This document shows, one piece after another, positions 33,544-62,484 of a DNA stretch of 64,000 nt. This stretch comes from Streptomyces alboflavus (lineage in GTDB: Bacteria; Actinomycetota; Actinomycetes; Streptomycetales; Streptomycetaceae), in the NCBI RefSeq assembly GCF_000716675.1, contig NZ_JNXT01000016.1, forward strand, positions 62,001 to 126,000, read 5' to 3'. Each line of letters begins with the position of its first letter. Position 1 is the first letter of the stretch. The position numbers and the translations under genes were made by a program. The notes under the pieces are model-generated. The model searched no databases. It saw only the letters and a list, made by a program, of their open reading frames with translations, and was not told where the DNA came from.

Positions 33544-33560
33544 GTAGTAACGGGTTCTAC
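33544..33560 (-). promoter_or_regulatory. KstR-like operator upstream of CYP125
   Basis: Read on the minus strand the site is GTAGAACCCGTTACTAC, matching the KstR pattern TAGAAC-N2-GTT-CTA closely. It lies about 50-67 bp before the P450 start, where a repressor would block transcription. Confidence 0.65.
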
Positions 33561-33659
33561 AAGTGGCAAGGCCCTTGACGCGTCGCTTTGGGCGCCGGTT
33601 GTGCGGGCGGTGCGTGCACGACCCTTGCGGCGGCGGGGTCGGGCTCAGCAGACTGGGGA

Positions 33660-33685
33660 GATAACTAGAACGCGTACTAGTTATC
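33660..33685. promoter_or_regulatory. KstR-like operator upstream of thiolase
   Basis: A perfect 9-bp inverted repeat, GATAACTAG (33660-33668) and CTAGTTATC (33677-33685), encloses AACGCGTA. The core TAGAACGCGTACTA matches the same TAGAAC-N2-GT pattern as the other sites. It is about 50 bp before the thiolase start. Confidence 0.7.
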
Positions 33686-33736
33686 GCGTGCGGGCTGCCG
33701 GGACGCCCCGTGGGCTGTGGAGGAGAGGACGAGTCT

Positions 33737-34906
33737 ATGGCCGCTGAACCTGTCATCGTCGAAGCCGTACGCACGCCGATCGGCAAGCGCGGGGGTGCGC
33801 TCGCCAACCTCCATCCCGCCTATCTTCTGGGCGAGACCTACCGCGAACTCCTCGGTCGCACCGGCATCCACGCCGACTGCGTCGAGCAGATCGTCGGCGG
33901 CGCGGTCACCCAGGCCGGCGAGCAGTCCGCGAACCCCGCGCGCACCGCGTGGCTCACCATGGGCCTGCCGTACGAGACCGGGGCGACGACGGTCAACTGC
34001 CAGTGCGGCTCGTCCCAGCAGGCCGCGCACCTGGTCGCCAACATGGTCGCGGGCGGCGTCATCGACGTCGGCATCAGCTGCGGCGTCGAGTCCATGTCGC
34101 GGGTGCCGCTCGGGTCCGCCTCCAAGCACGGGCCCGGCAAGCCGTTCCCCGACGAGTGGAACATCGACCTGCCCAACCAGTTCGAGGCGGCCGAGCGGAT
34201 CGCCCGCAAGCGGGGGCTCAGCCGCGAGAACGTCGACTCCCTCGGGCTCATCTCGCAGGAGCGGGCCGCCGTCGCCTGGGGCGAGGAGCGGTTCAAGCGC
34301 GAGACGTTCGCCGTGCAGGTGCCCACCGACGAGGCCGAGCAGGCCGCGGGGCAGGGGATGTGGCGGCTCGTGGACCGCGACGAGGGGCTCCGCGACACCT
34401 CCATGGACGCCCTCGGGCGGCTCAAGCCCGTCATGCCCACCGCCGTGCACACCGCCGGGAACTCCTCCCAGATCTCCGACGGGGCGGCGGCACTGCTCTG
34501 GACCTCCAAGCGGATGGCTCGGGCGCTGCGGTTACGGCCGCGGGCGCGGATCGTCGCGCAGGCGCTGGTGGGGGCCGATCCGCACTTCCACCTCGACGGG
34601 CCGATCGACGCCACTCGGGCCGTGCTCGGCAAGGCGGGGATGTCCTTGGCGGACATCGATCTGGTCGAGATCAACGAGGCGTTCGCCTCCGTCGTGCTGA
34701 GCTGGGCGCAGGTCTTCGGGCAGGACCTGGAGAAGGTGAACGTCAACGGCGGTGCGATCGCCCTTGGACACCCGGTCGGGGCGACCGGGGCGCGGCTGCT
34801 GACCACCGCCCTTCACGAACTGGAGCGGGCGGACAAGGAGTTCGCGCTGGTGTGCATGTGTGCGGGGGGTGCGGTGGCGACGGCGACGATCCTGCAGCGG
34901 CTGTAG
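33737..34906 (+). CDS. Steroid 3-ketoacyl-CoA thiolase (FadA5-like)
   Basis: A 389-residue thiolase. The nucleophile is Cys90 ([10 protein letters not shown]), the acid/base residues are His345 ([10 protein letters not shown]) and Cys375 (CMCAGGA), and INEAFASVV lies between. [18 protein letters not shown] and the [10 protein letters not shown] stretch are as in FadA5-type enzymes, which cleave ketoacyl-CoA esters of the cholesterol side chain. The ATG at 33737 follows AGGAGAGGACGAGTCT. It is divergent from CYP125 and shares its operator region. Confidence 0.9.
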
Positions 34907-34918
34907 CCCGCGTGGGAC

Positions 34919-35191
34919 GCCCCAGTCCCGCCCCTTCCCGAAACCGGGGCTGCGCCCCTGGACCCCGGGGGTGGGTGTCCCGTTGCCCTGGGCCGGGGGC
35001 ACCCTCGAATCGGCGCTCCGCGCCTCGTCCTCAAACGCCGGACGGGCTGAAAATACTTCGCCGTGGCGGGCTGAGGGCTTCCGCCGGGCGAATGGGGCGA
35101 GCTGATGGTGCCGACTGCCTCTGTCGGTTCAAAGGTGGGGCGGGTGGGTGGGAGAAAGCCCGTCCGGCGCTTGAGGACGAGCGCGGAGCGC
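34919..35191. repeat. Intergenic inverted-repeat element, copy 2
   Basis: This occupies the 365-bp gap behind the thiolase gene together with the following terminator. The left arm (34921-35052) has CCGAAACCGGGGCTGCGCCC and CGCGCCTCGTCCTCAAACGC; the right arm (35156-35191) has AAAGCCCGTCCGGCGCTTGA. Both match copy 1 over most of their length. The centre (GAAAATACTTCGCCGTGGCG etc.) is a diverged version of the 22-bp unit. No gene is seen. Confidence 0.8.
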
Positions 35192-59630: not shown

Positions 59631-60293
59631 CTAGTCCCGCCGCAGGGAGCCCGCGCCGGTTCGGCGCAGGACGCGGAGCGAGTCCGTGGCCGATACTTCC
59701 GTGAATGCCCCGGATTCCAGGGCCCGGAGGTAGATCCGGTACGGGGCCTGTCCGGTCCACTCGTCCACCGGGTCGGGGAACACGTCGTGGATGACGAGAA
59801 GACCGCCCTCCGCGACGTGCGGCGCCCACCCCTCGTAGTCCGCGTTGGCGTGCTCGTCGGTGTGGCCGCCGTCGATGAAGACGAGCCCGACCGGCGTCCG
59901 CCACACCGCCGCGACCTGCGGGGAACGGCCCACCACGGCGATGACGTGGTCTTCGAGACCGGCCCGGTGCAGGGTCCTGCGGAACGTCGGCAGCGTGTCC
60001 ATGCGGCCGAGCTCCGGGTCGACCGTCGCCGGGTCGTGGTAGTCCCAGCCGGGCTGCTGCTCCTCGCTGCCCCGGTGGTGGTCGACGGTGATCACGCTCA
60101 CACCGGCGGCGCGGGCCGCGTCCGCGAGCAGGATCGTGGAGCGGCCGCAGTACGTGCCGACCTCGAGGAGGGGAAGGCCGAGCGCCGTGGCCTCGGCGGC
60201 CGCCGCGTACAGGGCGAGGCCTTCCTTCACGGGCATGAAGCCCTTCGCGGCCTCGAAGGCGTCGAGAACGTCGGGACCGGGCTCGACGGCCAT
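59631..60293 (-). CDS. SAM-dependent methyltransferase (Methyltransf_24 type)
   Basis: A 220-residue class I methyltransferase: [23 protein letters not shown] (motif I), [42 protein letters not shown] and [11 protein letters not shown] are characteristic. The acceptor is unknown. GAGGAGG five bases upstream decides the ATG at 60293 over a longer frame. It is upstream of and close to the amidase gene, so the two may be co-transcribed. Confidence 0.88.
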
Positions 60294-60408
60294 GGGTTCC
60301 TCCTCGGGGCGGGCGTGTGGAGGCCCGCGGGGTGCGCGTGGTGAACGGGCCCCGCGCGTGCGGACGCGCGGGGCGCCCGCGTACGGACATGTGGGGCGCC
60401 CCATCGTG

Positions 60409-60447
60409 CACCACACCCCCGTCATGGGGGTTGACGGGGGTGTGGTG
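60409..60447 (-). terminator. Terminator after MFS gene
   Basis: A perfect 16-bp inverted repeat (60409-60424 and 60432-60447, CACCACACCCCCGTCA) with a seven-base loop, 70 bp past the MFS stop. It should stop MFS transcription before the methyltransferase gene. Confidence 0.8.
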
Positions 60448-60516
60448 GTCCGTGCGGCGGCGGTCGGCCGCCGGTGGGGAGCCCCGGACGGAGGCCCACG
60501 GAGACCTACGGAGGCC

Positions 60517-62286
60517 TCAGGCCAGGACCTCGCTCTCGCCCGGCAGAGCCAGGTCGACCTCCACCGGACGCTCCCCGCCGGGGTGGGCGGCGGACGCGGC
60601 GTGCGGCGCGTGCCCCGCGGCCGTCGCGGCGAGGACGTAGGGCCCGTCGCCCGGGACCCGCAGGGCGTAGCGCCCCTCGCCGTCCGTCAGCGCCGCGCCC
60701 GCCTGCTTGCCCCGCTGGTCGATCAGCGTGACCTTCGCCCGCGGCACCGGCGCGCCGGAGGCGGCGAGTACCCGGCCCTGGAAGCCGCCGAGGGCCCGCA
60801 CGGCCCGCTCGGCGTTCTCGATGGCCGCGTCCTCCTCGCTGCTGGCCCGCAGTTGCGGCTTGGCCTCGGCGGGCGCGCGCCCGCGGCCGGGCAGGAACAG
60901 GGCGAGCAGCAGGCCGATGGCGACGGCGCCGGTGGCGATGAGGAAGGAGGTGCGGAAGCCCTCCATGGTGGGTACGTCGACGCCTCCCGCGTGGGTCGCG
61001 GTGTTGGCGAGCACCATGCCGATGACGGCGCTCGACACCGAGGTGCCGATGGACCGCATCAGGGTGTTGAGGCCGTTGGCCGCGCCCGTCTCGGAGGGGT
61101 CGACGGCGCCGATGATCAGGGCGGGCAGCGAGGAGTAGGCGAGGCCGATGCCCGCGCCGACGATCACTGAGATGACGATGGTCTGCCAGGCGGCGCTCAT
61201 CAGGCCGAGGCCCGCGCCGTAGCCGATCGCGATGATCAGCAGGCCGAGGATCAGCGTGATCTTCGGGCCGTACTTCGCCGAGAGGCGCGCGTACACGGGC
61301 GCGGTGAACATCATCGTCAGGCCGAGCGGCGCCACGCACAGACCCGCGACGACCATGGACTGGCCGAGGCCGTACCCGGTGGACGTGGGCAGTTGGAGGA
61401 GCTGGGGCAGGACGAGCGAGATGGCGTAGAAGGCGACACCGACCATGATCGAGGCGAGGTTGGTGAGCAGCACCTCGCGCCGGGCGGTGGTGCGCAGGTC
61501 CACCAGCGGTGCCTTCAGGCGCAGTTCCATCACGCCCCACAGGAGCAGGACGGCGGCCGAGGCCCCGAAGAGCCCGAGGGTCAGGCCCGAACTCCAGCCC
61601 CAGTCACTGCCCTTGGTGATCGGCAGCAGGAAGAGCACGAGGCCCGCGGACAGACCGAGGGCGCCGGCCACGTCGAAGGTGCCCTCGGCCCGCAGCGGGC
61701 TCTCCGGCACCAGGAAGAAGATGAGGAGCATCGCGAGGACGCCGAGGCCCGCGGCCCCGAAGAACAGCGCGTGCCAGTCGGTGTGCTGGGCGACGAGGGC
61801 GGCCGCGGGCAGGGCGAGGCCGCCGCCGACGCCGATGGACGAGCTCATCAGGGCCATCGCGGAGCCGAGCTTCTCGCGCGGCAGCTCGTCGCGCATCAGG
61901 CCGATGCCCAGCGGTATCGCGCCCATCGCGAAGCCCTGCAGGGCACGGCCGACGATCATCACGAGCAGGTCGTCGGTGAACGCGCAGACCAGGGAGCCGA
62001 CGACCATCACGGCGAGGCTGGTGAGCAGCATCCGGCGCTTGCCGAAGAGGTCGCCGAGGCGGCCCATGATCGGCGTGGAGACGGCGCCCGCGAGCAGGGT
62101 CGAGGTCATGACCCAGGTGGCGTTGGAGGGTTCGGTGCCGAGCAGCGTCGGCAGGTCCTTGATGACGGGGACGAGCAGCGTCTGCATGACGGCGACGACG
62201 ATGCCCGCGAAGGCGAGGACGGGGACGACGCCGCCGGTGCCGCGCGTTGCGCGGTCACCGCGGGGGTGGGTCGTCGCGTGGGACAT
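60517..62286 (-). CDS. MFS transporter with carboxypeptidase-regulatory-like tail
   Basis: A 589-residue protein. Residues about 15-490 are a 14-helix DHA2-like MFS exporter ([14 protein letters not shown] is motif [27 protein letters not shown]). The last about 85 residues ([44 protein letters not shown]) form a CarboxypepD_reg-like beta-sandwich. The loop between contains charged sequence ([16 protein letters not shown]). Such a soluble tail on an MFS transporter is uncommon. The start is the ATG at 62286. Confidence 0.88.
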
Positions 62287-62471
62287 GGGCGTGCGGCCTC
62301 CGGCAGGAAGAGTGGGGGCGGGCGGGGGGAGGGGTGGGACACCCGCAGGTATATGCAGGATGAACCTGTATCCCTGGGCGACTATTCCGGCGGACGTCGA
62401 AGCAAGGGAAGTCTTGACCCGCCATTGACCGGTTCTGTACGCGGCCGACGCCGCCGCCCTTCCAGTGAAGT

Positions 62472-62484
62472 GAAACGTGTTCTA
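62472..62484 (-). promoter_or_regulatory. KstR-like operator upstream of SCP-x thiolase
   Basis: On the minus strand TAGAACACGTTTC, which agrees with the published KstR core TAGAAC-A-CGTTC almost fully. It lies 35-47 bp before the thiolase start. It is the strongest match of the set. Confidence 0.75.

Follow-up and report, generated by a model that had tools for sequence, protein, structure and literature searches.

Do the six TAGAAC-N2-GT sites found in one stretch of Streptomyces alboflavus DNA mark a KstR-type regulon, and what would such a regulon control? The window, i.e. the whole 64-kb stretch analysed, belongs to a genome of 9,717,375 bases in 171 contigs, with an assembly rated 100% complete. 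A first-pass annotation, made from the sequence alone, had listed the six sites, and both their positions and their strands are correct; the window holds no other match to TAGAACNNGT (33550-33559(-), 33666-33675(+), 44109-44118(+), 45189-45198(+), 47944-47953(-) and 62475-62484(-)). Six matches compare with 0.25 expected, and none of 100 shuffles attained six. The reversed pattern, run as a control, occurs 180 times in the whole genome and the motif itself 60 times; this match count gives a background of 0.36 sites per 64 kb, and a Poisson probability of about 2e-6 for six or more sites in the window. Chance clustering is thus ruled out by the shuffles, the genome background and the Poisson probability. 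Nor is the frequency of the motif elsewhere in the genome random-like, a possibility that the annotation had itself raised: 44 of the 52 sites outside the window lie within called genes, and the palindrome is broken in most. Outside the window, the upstream sites L203, L206 and L212 have the half-site only and are treated as chance. The strict published palindrome TnnAACnnGTTnnA is matched by two of the six boxes, the remaining four each being one base off. A palindrome search of the whole genome allowing two mismatches found 73 sites for the motif and 212 for the control pattern. The loose motif therefore has no genome-wide signal, and the follow-up was restricted to near-perfect sites. In our judgment the six sites are genuine and mark a predicted KstR-type regulon in a Streptomyces. 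The boxes are:

33546..33559, minus strand: KstR-type box TAGAACCCGTTACT, preceding the CYP125 gene
33666..33679, plus strand: KstR-type box TAGAACGCGTACTA, preceding the FadA5-type thiolase gene
44109..44122, plus strand: KstR-type box TAGAACTTGTTTCG, preceding the MBL-fold hydrolase gene
45189..45202, plus strand: KstR-type box TAGAACTGGTATCA, preceding the ALDH-ferredoxin genes
47940..47953, minus strand: KstR-type box TAGAACAAGTTTCA, kstR/manT intergenic, a strict fit to TnnAACnnGTTnnA
62471..62484, minus strand: KstR-type box TAGAACACGTTTCA, between the MFS gene (meT1 behind) and the SCP-x-type thiolase gene

The spacing of about 35-110 bp from box to start that had been given is actually 6 to 64 bp, measured between the 14-base box and the earliest predicted start of the ORF; the kstR start lies 213 bp from the box. 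The identities assigned to the genes (CYP125, FadA5-type thiolase, MBL-fold hydrolase, ALDH and ferredoxin, GT4, KstR-type TetR and SCP-x-type thiolase) were confirmed. Apart from the regulator and the GT4 genes, which are described below, the genes are:

32249..33499, minus strand: CYP125, steroid C26-monooxygenase (top solved relatives are CYP125 chains, 510 bits; CYP124 next, 310 bits)
33710..34906, plus strand: FadA5-type steroid 3-ketoacyl-CoA thiolase (NF005889, 675 bits, cut-off 515)
42960..44102, minus strand: MBL-fold hydrolase of the Strvi_7410 family (NF053820, 653 bits, cut-off 525)
45267..46784, plus strand: aldehyde dehydrogenase (PF00171, 495 bits; best solved relative 3b4w, 495 bits)
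46784..47017, plus strand: small [3Fe-4S]-type ferredoxin of 77 aa, overlapping the ALDH stop (translation read by eye)
60517..62286, minus strand: MFS transporter (PF07690), between the box and meT1
62519..63712, plus strand: SCP-x-type thiolase, a lipid-transfer protein (NF006102, 624 bits, cut-off 436)

The 77-aa ferredoxin that follows the ALDH is possibly a redox partner of the P450. The candidate repressor is encoded between the ferredoxin and the kstR/manT box:

47091..47726, minus strand: KstR-type TetR regulator (solved-structure relatives and NF033703)

KstR structures are among its five best solved relatives (139-146 bits, the next relative scoring 41 bits), and its DNA-binding stretch GTLYRYFPSKVHLLV is identical in M. 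tuberculosis KstR (3mnl). As its score of 201.4 bits against the NCBI KstR equivalog NF033703 falls under the cut-off of 280, we call the protein KstR-type. No other close KstR relative occurs in the genome, the next TetR scoring 36 bits, and a strict TnnAACnnGTTnnA box stands ahead of its own gene (47940-47953). KstR relatives are present in 187 of 199 Streptomyces genomes; the tree of KstR lineages gives no settled branching order and carries long-branch warnings. The suggestion that this TetR is the repressor shared by the six sites fits all of the sequence tests, i.e. the sites cluster at the locus that carries the sole close KstR relative, and the boxes recur before orthologues.

The gene facing kstR had been read as the start of a “GT4 operon”. 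The GT4 gene stands; the operon is not an unspecified glycosyltransferase operon, but the manT-pMeT3-mmpH operon of methylmannose polysaccharide (MMP) synthesis, with meT1 nearby, an assignment that is new here. MMP is a sugar polymer with a presumed role in binding fatty acyl-CoAs. The genes are:

48007..49473, plus strand: manT, MMP alpha-(1->4)-mannosyltransferase (7qsg, which is ManT, 440 bits)
49467..50237, plus strand: pmeT3, putative MMP 3-O-methyltransferase (SAM-methyltransferase, frame by GC3, between manT and mmpH)
50234..51307, plus strand: mmpH, MMP hydrolase (Foldseek top match 7qsj, MmpH, 51% identity over 338 columns, E 2.7e-20; model pLDDT 59)
59631..60425, minus strand: meT1-like MMP 1-O-methyltransferase (sole solved relative 6g7d, which we take to be MeT1, 240 bits)

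The pMeT3 match is to a generic SAM-methyltransferase only, in the expected position. The mmpH product is labelled “prenyltransferase” in databases.

Conservation of the boxes was read in loci of the best-scoring relatives, including some repeats, so that the fractions given here are not drawn from independent random species: the kstR/manT gap holds a box in 109 of 109 Streptomyces loci with its 10 core bases invariant, ALDH orthologues have one in 57/68 loci, MBL hydrolase orthologues in 47/58 (within 400 bp upstream) and the MFS gene in 8/13, and at least two TAGAACNNGT matches lie in the CYP125/FadA5 gap in 29 of 30 loci, the source genome's own counted. The manT operon is the best-conserved of the predicted targets. 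Controls on neighbouring genes gave 0/68, 0/54, 0/35, 0/53, 0/41 and 0/16, and the reversed pattern was found at 1/109 kstR/manT, 0/68 ALDH and 0/58 MBL loci. The distance from kstR to CYP125 is at most 35 kb in 28 of the 29 genomes measured. Among 199 genomes, 134 encode both KstR and CYP125 and one encodes CYP125 alone (Fisher P 1.8e-5); 53 are KstR-positive and CYP125-negative, and the manT/kstR box is kept in all 17 of these that were examined.

Some candidate targets were dropped. The LLM oxidoreductase gene (56303-57316, Rv3520c family) has boxes at 0/68 loci, although Rv3520c/Rv3521 itself appears with a KstR motif in the available part of PMC1995591. The counts do not support meT1 as a universal target (box in 10 of 47 loci with flank), and Ltp was rejected as a directly controlled gene at other loci (2 of 12). 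In the three relatives read (L350, L355 and L363) a large gene separates the box from ltp, and in both relatives profiled it encodes an acyl-CoA dehydrogenase with two domain sets.

The predicted regulon extends outside the window, where boxes precede genes for a cholesterol oxidase and two steroid-type acyl-CoA dehydrogenases and a MaoC/ADH/SDR operon, among others. Boxes are kept in 29/30 loci of the 30 best cholesterol oxidase relatives, 29/30 loci of the acyl-CoA dehydrogenase on contig 27 and 11/14 of the MaoC operon; a box on contig 15 was read in the source genome. CYP125 and the contig-27 acyl-CoA dehydrogenase largely travel together (132 genomes with both, 62 with neither and 5 discordant, out of 199). 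At an E value of 1e-150 the cholesterol oxidase finds matches in 119 of 199 genomes, a mixed set in which, among the matches listed, 63 genomes have at least 74% identity (one partial) and 56 have a 50-58% relative only.

The side-chain enzymes of the seco pathway, CYP125 and FadA5, are present. Searches of the source genome gave no KshA_C match for KshA, no HsaA over the cut-off (best E 3.1e-27), no KstD over the cut-off (a 33.6-bit fragment only) and no MlaD match for an Mce/Mce4 importer. The description of the set as side-chain genes without ring cleavage, which the first-pass annotation had made for the window, therefore holds for the genome, the 9,10-seco ring-opening enzymes KshA, KstD and HsaA all being under cut-offs. 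KshA passes the Pfam cut-off in 57 of 199 Streptomyces genomes, of which the 18 with at least 260 bits were counted, a line that we drew where the listed scores drop from 263 to 101 bits. Counted in this way, KshA and HsaA occur together (17 genomes with both, one discordant), and 119 of 135 CYP125-bearing genomes have neither. The ring clusters of other Streptomyces were rejected as KstR targets, with no TAGAACNNGT in the four 20-kb KshA stretches read, one of which (L264) holds HsaA, HsaC and HsaD relatives.

We propose that the TetR (47091-47726) binds TAGAACnnGTTnnA-like operators and represses a scattered regulon. Its targets at the locus would be kstR itself, the divergent manT-pMeT3-mmpH operon, ALDH-ferredoxin, the MBL hydrolase, CYP125 and FadA5, MFS/meT1 and the SCP-x thiolase, with the MaoC hydratase-ADH-SDR operon and, on other contigs, the cholesterol oxidase and two acyl-CoA dehydrogenases as further targets. 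Environmental sterols would be oxidised by a secreted cholesterol oxidase and then by CYP125 and ALDH. Activation of the side chain would yield a CoA thioester that may free the repressor from DNA, by analogy with M. tuberculosis KstR, which is released by 3-oxo-cholestenoyl-CoA. Beta-oxidation would then trim the tail. For want of ring-opening enzymes the nucleus is predicted to stay intact, the end product probably being a C22 or C19 steroid; MMP produced simultaneously would bind long acyl-CoAs. Taken as a whole, this account of a KstR-type TetR with a scattered regulon, CoA-thioester release, side-chain-only sterol shortening and MMP is in our view quite probable.

The strongest competitor holds that the repressor primarily serves acyl-CoA homeostasis via MMP, sensing fatty and branched acyl-CoAs generally, the sterol genes being a supplement since lost by many species. 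Of all the boxes, that of manT is the best conserved and persists in the 17 CYP125-negative genomes examined, and outside Streptomyces kstR lies beside manT in 4 of 20 loci; against this, the sterol targets (cholesterol oxidase, steroid-type acyl-CoA dehydrogenase, CYP125/FadA5) each retain boxes at 29 of 30 loci, and we hold it to be possible, if somewhat the less plausible reading. It is improbable that a full steroid pathway is present, with rings opened by unrelated enzymes. The searches detect homologues of KshA, HsaA and KstD only, and the genome is in 171 contigs, but the assembly is rated complete, three independent ring families drop out of the searches together, KshA and HsaA are lacking side by side in most CYP125 genomes, and the four KshA regions read in other species are without the motif. 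Still less credible, and rejected, is a TetR that stands by while a different regulator sharing the half-site uses the sites: the protein does score under the NCBI cut-off, but the kstR/manT gap holds a box in all 109 loci, outside Streptomyces TAGAACNNGTT precedes kstR in 10 of 20 loci, the published KstR operator matches, and the genome has no second close KstR relative.

Many Streptomyces are without ring degradation and yet seem equipped for sterol tail shortening. Industry obtains strains of this kind from mycobacteria in which ring opening has been disabled. The box ahead of manT-pMeT3-mmpH would be a first regulatory handle on MMP, for the control of which we found no account in the literature, and would tie MMP to CoA-thioester sensing. 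We tentatively suggest, with the arguments close to balanced, that the KstR lineage predates cholesterol mineralisation and reaches beyond it, and that in Streptomyces, as a near-core regulator, it links MMP synthesis to a natural sterol pathway found across the genus and confined to the side chain (sterol in, C22 or C19 steroid out), the MMP half being the more ancient or essential.

The publications compared here were available to us in part, and what follows refers to those parts. KstR has been said to originate in the common ancestor of mycobacteria and Rhodococcus (PMC3388012), and steroid pathways were described as absent from 55 of 57 Streptomyces (PMC4810484). Both views would need revision if 187 of 199 Streptomyces genomes carry a conserved repressor with conserved operators. 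The regulon described for M. smegmatis and M. tuberculosis (Kendall 2007, PMC1995591) shares with ours the TetR lineage, the operator core TAGAAC(N2)GTTCTA, a box before the regulator's own gene, and CYP125, FadA5-type, acyl-CoA dehydrogenase and SDR targets. Unlike it, S. alboflavus is without ring-opening genes and Mce4, its targets are scattered over several contigs, its kstR neighbour is manT rather than fadE34/otsB, and its protein falls under the NCBI KstR cut-off. In M. smegmatis, PMC1995591 lists a KstR motif at MSMEG_6475, and the MMP genes are MSMEG_6481-6484 (PMC9883506). The Nocardioides simplex regulon (PMC7593942) is likewise that of a non-mycolic-acid bacterium, with cholesterol oxidase, cyp125 and hsd4A assigned to it; it differs in taking in kshA, kstD and mce and in standing beside a KstR2 regulon, and N. 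simplex can use cholesterol for growth. CYP125A13 of Streptomyces peucetius oxidises cholesterol in vitro, and the available part of PMC9728343 mentions neither a regulator nor a surrounding gene cluster. The MMP cluster of nontuberculous mycobacteria is meT1-mmpH-pmeT3-manT (PMC9883506, in which S. griseus is cited as a producer of acetylated MMP), to which S. alboflavus ManT (440 bits) and MmpH (51% identity) correspond; the main text of that paper is without “KstR” or “regulat”, whereas in S. alboflavus the MMP operon faces kstR and carries its box.

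The first-pass annotation had placed six TAGAACNNGT sites in the window, before CYP125, FadA5, an MBL hydrolase, ALDH-ferredoxin, the GT4 operon/kstR and an SCP-x-type thiolase (ltp), and was right in position and strand for all six. This compares with 0.25 expected, and none of 100 shuffles gave six. The whole genome (9.72 Mb in 171 contigs, completeness rating 100%) holds 60 matches to TAGAACNNGT and 180 to the reversed control; the background from the genome count is 0.36 per 64 kb, giving a Poisson P of about 2e-6 for the six in the window. Two of these match the strict KstR palindrome TnnAACnnGTTnnA (Kendall 2007, as excerpted), and the remaining four are each one base short of it.

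The box is best conserved between kstR and manT, where it is found in 109 of 109 Streptomyces loci, in 96 as exact TAGAACAAGTTTCA; these loci are partly non-independent, with 78 distinct 120-base contexts among 96 comparable loci. Ten core bases are invariant, and the columns 15-45 bases upstream lie mostly at 0.4-0.85. The immediate flanks are also strongly conserved, and in the window the box sits in a longer inverted repeat, GAACAAGT-CTGAA-ACTTGTTC (47927-47953). A box occurs within 400 bp upstream of the ALDH orthologue in 57 of 68 loci and of the MBL orthologue in 47 of 58, and upstream of six neighbouring genes in none (0/68, 0/54, 0/35, 0/53, 0/41 and 0/16). The reversed pattern gave 1/109 at kstR/manT, 0/68 at ALDH and 0/58 at MBL, with higher counts at mmpH (5/77) and one neighbouring gene (4/16). 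The CYP125/FadA5 gap carries at least two boxes in 29 of the best 30 CYP125 loci (own locus included) and one box in the other. Among 20 non-Streptomyces loci, TAGAACNNGTT precedes kstR in ten, and some AACnnGTT site in 16. An LLM oxidoreductase of the Rv3520c family in the kstR locus (56303-57316) has no box (0/68); for M. tuberculosis, the excerpted PMC1995591 lists a KstR motif at Rv3520c/Rv3521. Boxes are likewise absent from the ECF-transporter-like, CbiQ-like and toroid-repeat (SQHop-like) genes at 36038-41605; beside kstR in relatives, SQHop is seen in 57 and CbiQ in 45 of 109 loci.

Outside the window, which covers C16:62001-126000, there are 52 distinct TAGAACNNGT sites, 44 within called genes, five upstream of a gene and three elsewhere. 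Because the GC3-based caller overextends some starts, three of the "inside" sites merit closer attention: two are at a cholesterol oxidase gene (choA) on contig 3 (755 bits to 1coy) and one is at an acyl-CoA dehydrogenase gene on contig 15 (440 bits to 4x28_A). Perfect palindromes lie ahead of a MaoC hydratase-ADH-SDR operon (C16:129511) and of an acyl-CoA dehydrogenase on contig 27 (C27:88300; 186 bits to 6wy8_A, 176 to 4x28_D). The two dehydrogenases thus resemble different chains of solved heteromeric enzymes, and are presumably ChsE4/ChsE5 subunits. Among the 30 best-scoring relatives of each (own locus counted), the choA box and the contig-27 dehydrogenase box are each kept in 29; the likely ATG of choA follows its box at 40 bp. 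A second, near-palindromic site within the oxidase signal-peptide codons (L004:7289-7302, with its equivalent position in L268-L297) is seen in most of the 30 oxidase loci, and may reflect coding constraint or regulation. The MaoC operon has its box in 11 of 14 loci and TGGAACGCGTTYCA in the other three.

The TetR encoded at 47091-47726 (minus strand) is closest among solved proteins to the KstR structures and to two TetR entries (139-146 bits; next entry 41 bits), and shares GTLYRYFPSKVHLLV with M. tuberculosis KstR. It scores 201 bits against the 280 required by the NCBI KstR cut-off, and is therefore filed as KstR-type rather than KstR. It is the sole such relative in its genome (second-best TetR 36 bits); its nearest relatives are from Streptomyces, the top one from S. 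flavofungini (98% identity). KstR-type regulators were found in 187 of 199 drawn Streptomyces genomes; across the class, 144 of 394 genomes, representing 37 of 137 genera, have one when looser relatives are included. The eight Streptomyces sequences form one supported clade (97/99) in a tree whose non-Streptomyces branching order is not resolved and which carries long-branch warnings.

The gene opposite kstR belongs to methylmannose polysaccharide (MMP) synthesis. The GT4 at 48007-49473 scores 440 bits to 7qsg and 83 to the next structure, and a 623-aa ORF downstream was resolved by frame plot and overlapping start codons into a putative pMeT3 (49467-50237) and mmpH (50234-51307). A predicted mmpH structure of low confidence (pLDDT 59) matches 7qsj first, at 51% identity; entries 7QSG and 7QSJ are ManT and MmpH of the MMP pathway. 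An mmpH relative in S. alboflavus shows 99% identity. Most of the 120 relatives listed for mmpH carry the name "prenyltransferase" or "prenyltransferase/squalene oxidase repeat-containing protein", whereas MmpH is the nearest structure solved. At 59631-60425 lies a methyltransferase with a single solved relative, 6g7d (240 bits), which we take to be MeT1. Its gene has a box in just 10 of 47 loci with flank, and the MFS gene preceding it in 8 of 13. ManT lies opposite kstR in 109/109 Streptomyces loci, with pMeT3 in 77 and mmpH in 78 (29 loci are too short for either), and adjoins kstR in 4 of 20 non-Streptomyces loci. Box and manT were kept in all 17 genomes examined out of 53 that are KstR-positive and CYP125-negative. 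Elsewhere in the window, GT87 and PAP2 domains are fused in a single ORF (28290-30461). In loci L350, L355 and L363 a large gene, absent at window 62471-62519, separates the box from ltp; the two profiled have duplicated acyl-CoA dehydrogenase domains.

CYP125 is present in 135 of the 199 genomes and the contig-27-type dehydrogenase in 134 (agreement in 194, disagreement in five). KstR and CYP125 occur together in 134, and CYP125 without KstR in one; hand measurement from tables in 29 genomes put the two genes no more than 35 kb apart in 28. In genome G071, which has no KstR match, CYP125 and the acyl-CoA dehydrogenase are present along with a cholesterol oxidase relative. The earlier proposal of a side-chain set without ring-cleavage genes holds across the S. 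alboflavus genome: KshA_C, HsaA and KstD are not over their cut-offs, with zero matches to KshA_C and to the Mce marker MlaD, none over cut-off to HsaA and a 33.6-bit KstD fragment. KshA (counted at 260 bits or more) is found in 18 and HsaA (over cut-off) in 17 of the 199 genomes, and neither in 119 of the 135 with CYP125. Four KshA regions examined in other species lack TAGAACNNGT; one holds HsaA, HsaC and HsaD relatives.

Papers examined from the open full-text literature, which leaves subscription papers mostly outside, gave no description of a Streptomyces KstR regulon, and that literature has no joint mention of "methylmannose" and "KstR". Excerpts place the origin of KstR at the mycobacteria/Rhodococcus ancestor, with paralogues elsewhere (PMC3388012), and report steroid pathways missing in 55 of 57 Streptomyces (PMC4810484). 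We propose that the KstR-type repressor would sit on its target promoters until an oxidised sterol tail, as its CoA thioester, releases it. The tail would be shortened by secreted cholesterol oxidase, CYP125 with ferredoxin, ALDH and beta-oxidation enzymes, probably leaving the nucleus, and MMP may buffer CoA thioesters. For M. tuberculosis KstR, release by a thioester of this kind is stated in the available portion of PMC9782250, and sequestration of acyl-CoA by MMP is proposed in that of PMC9883506.
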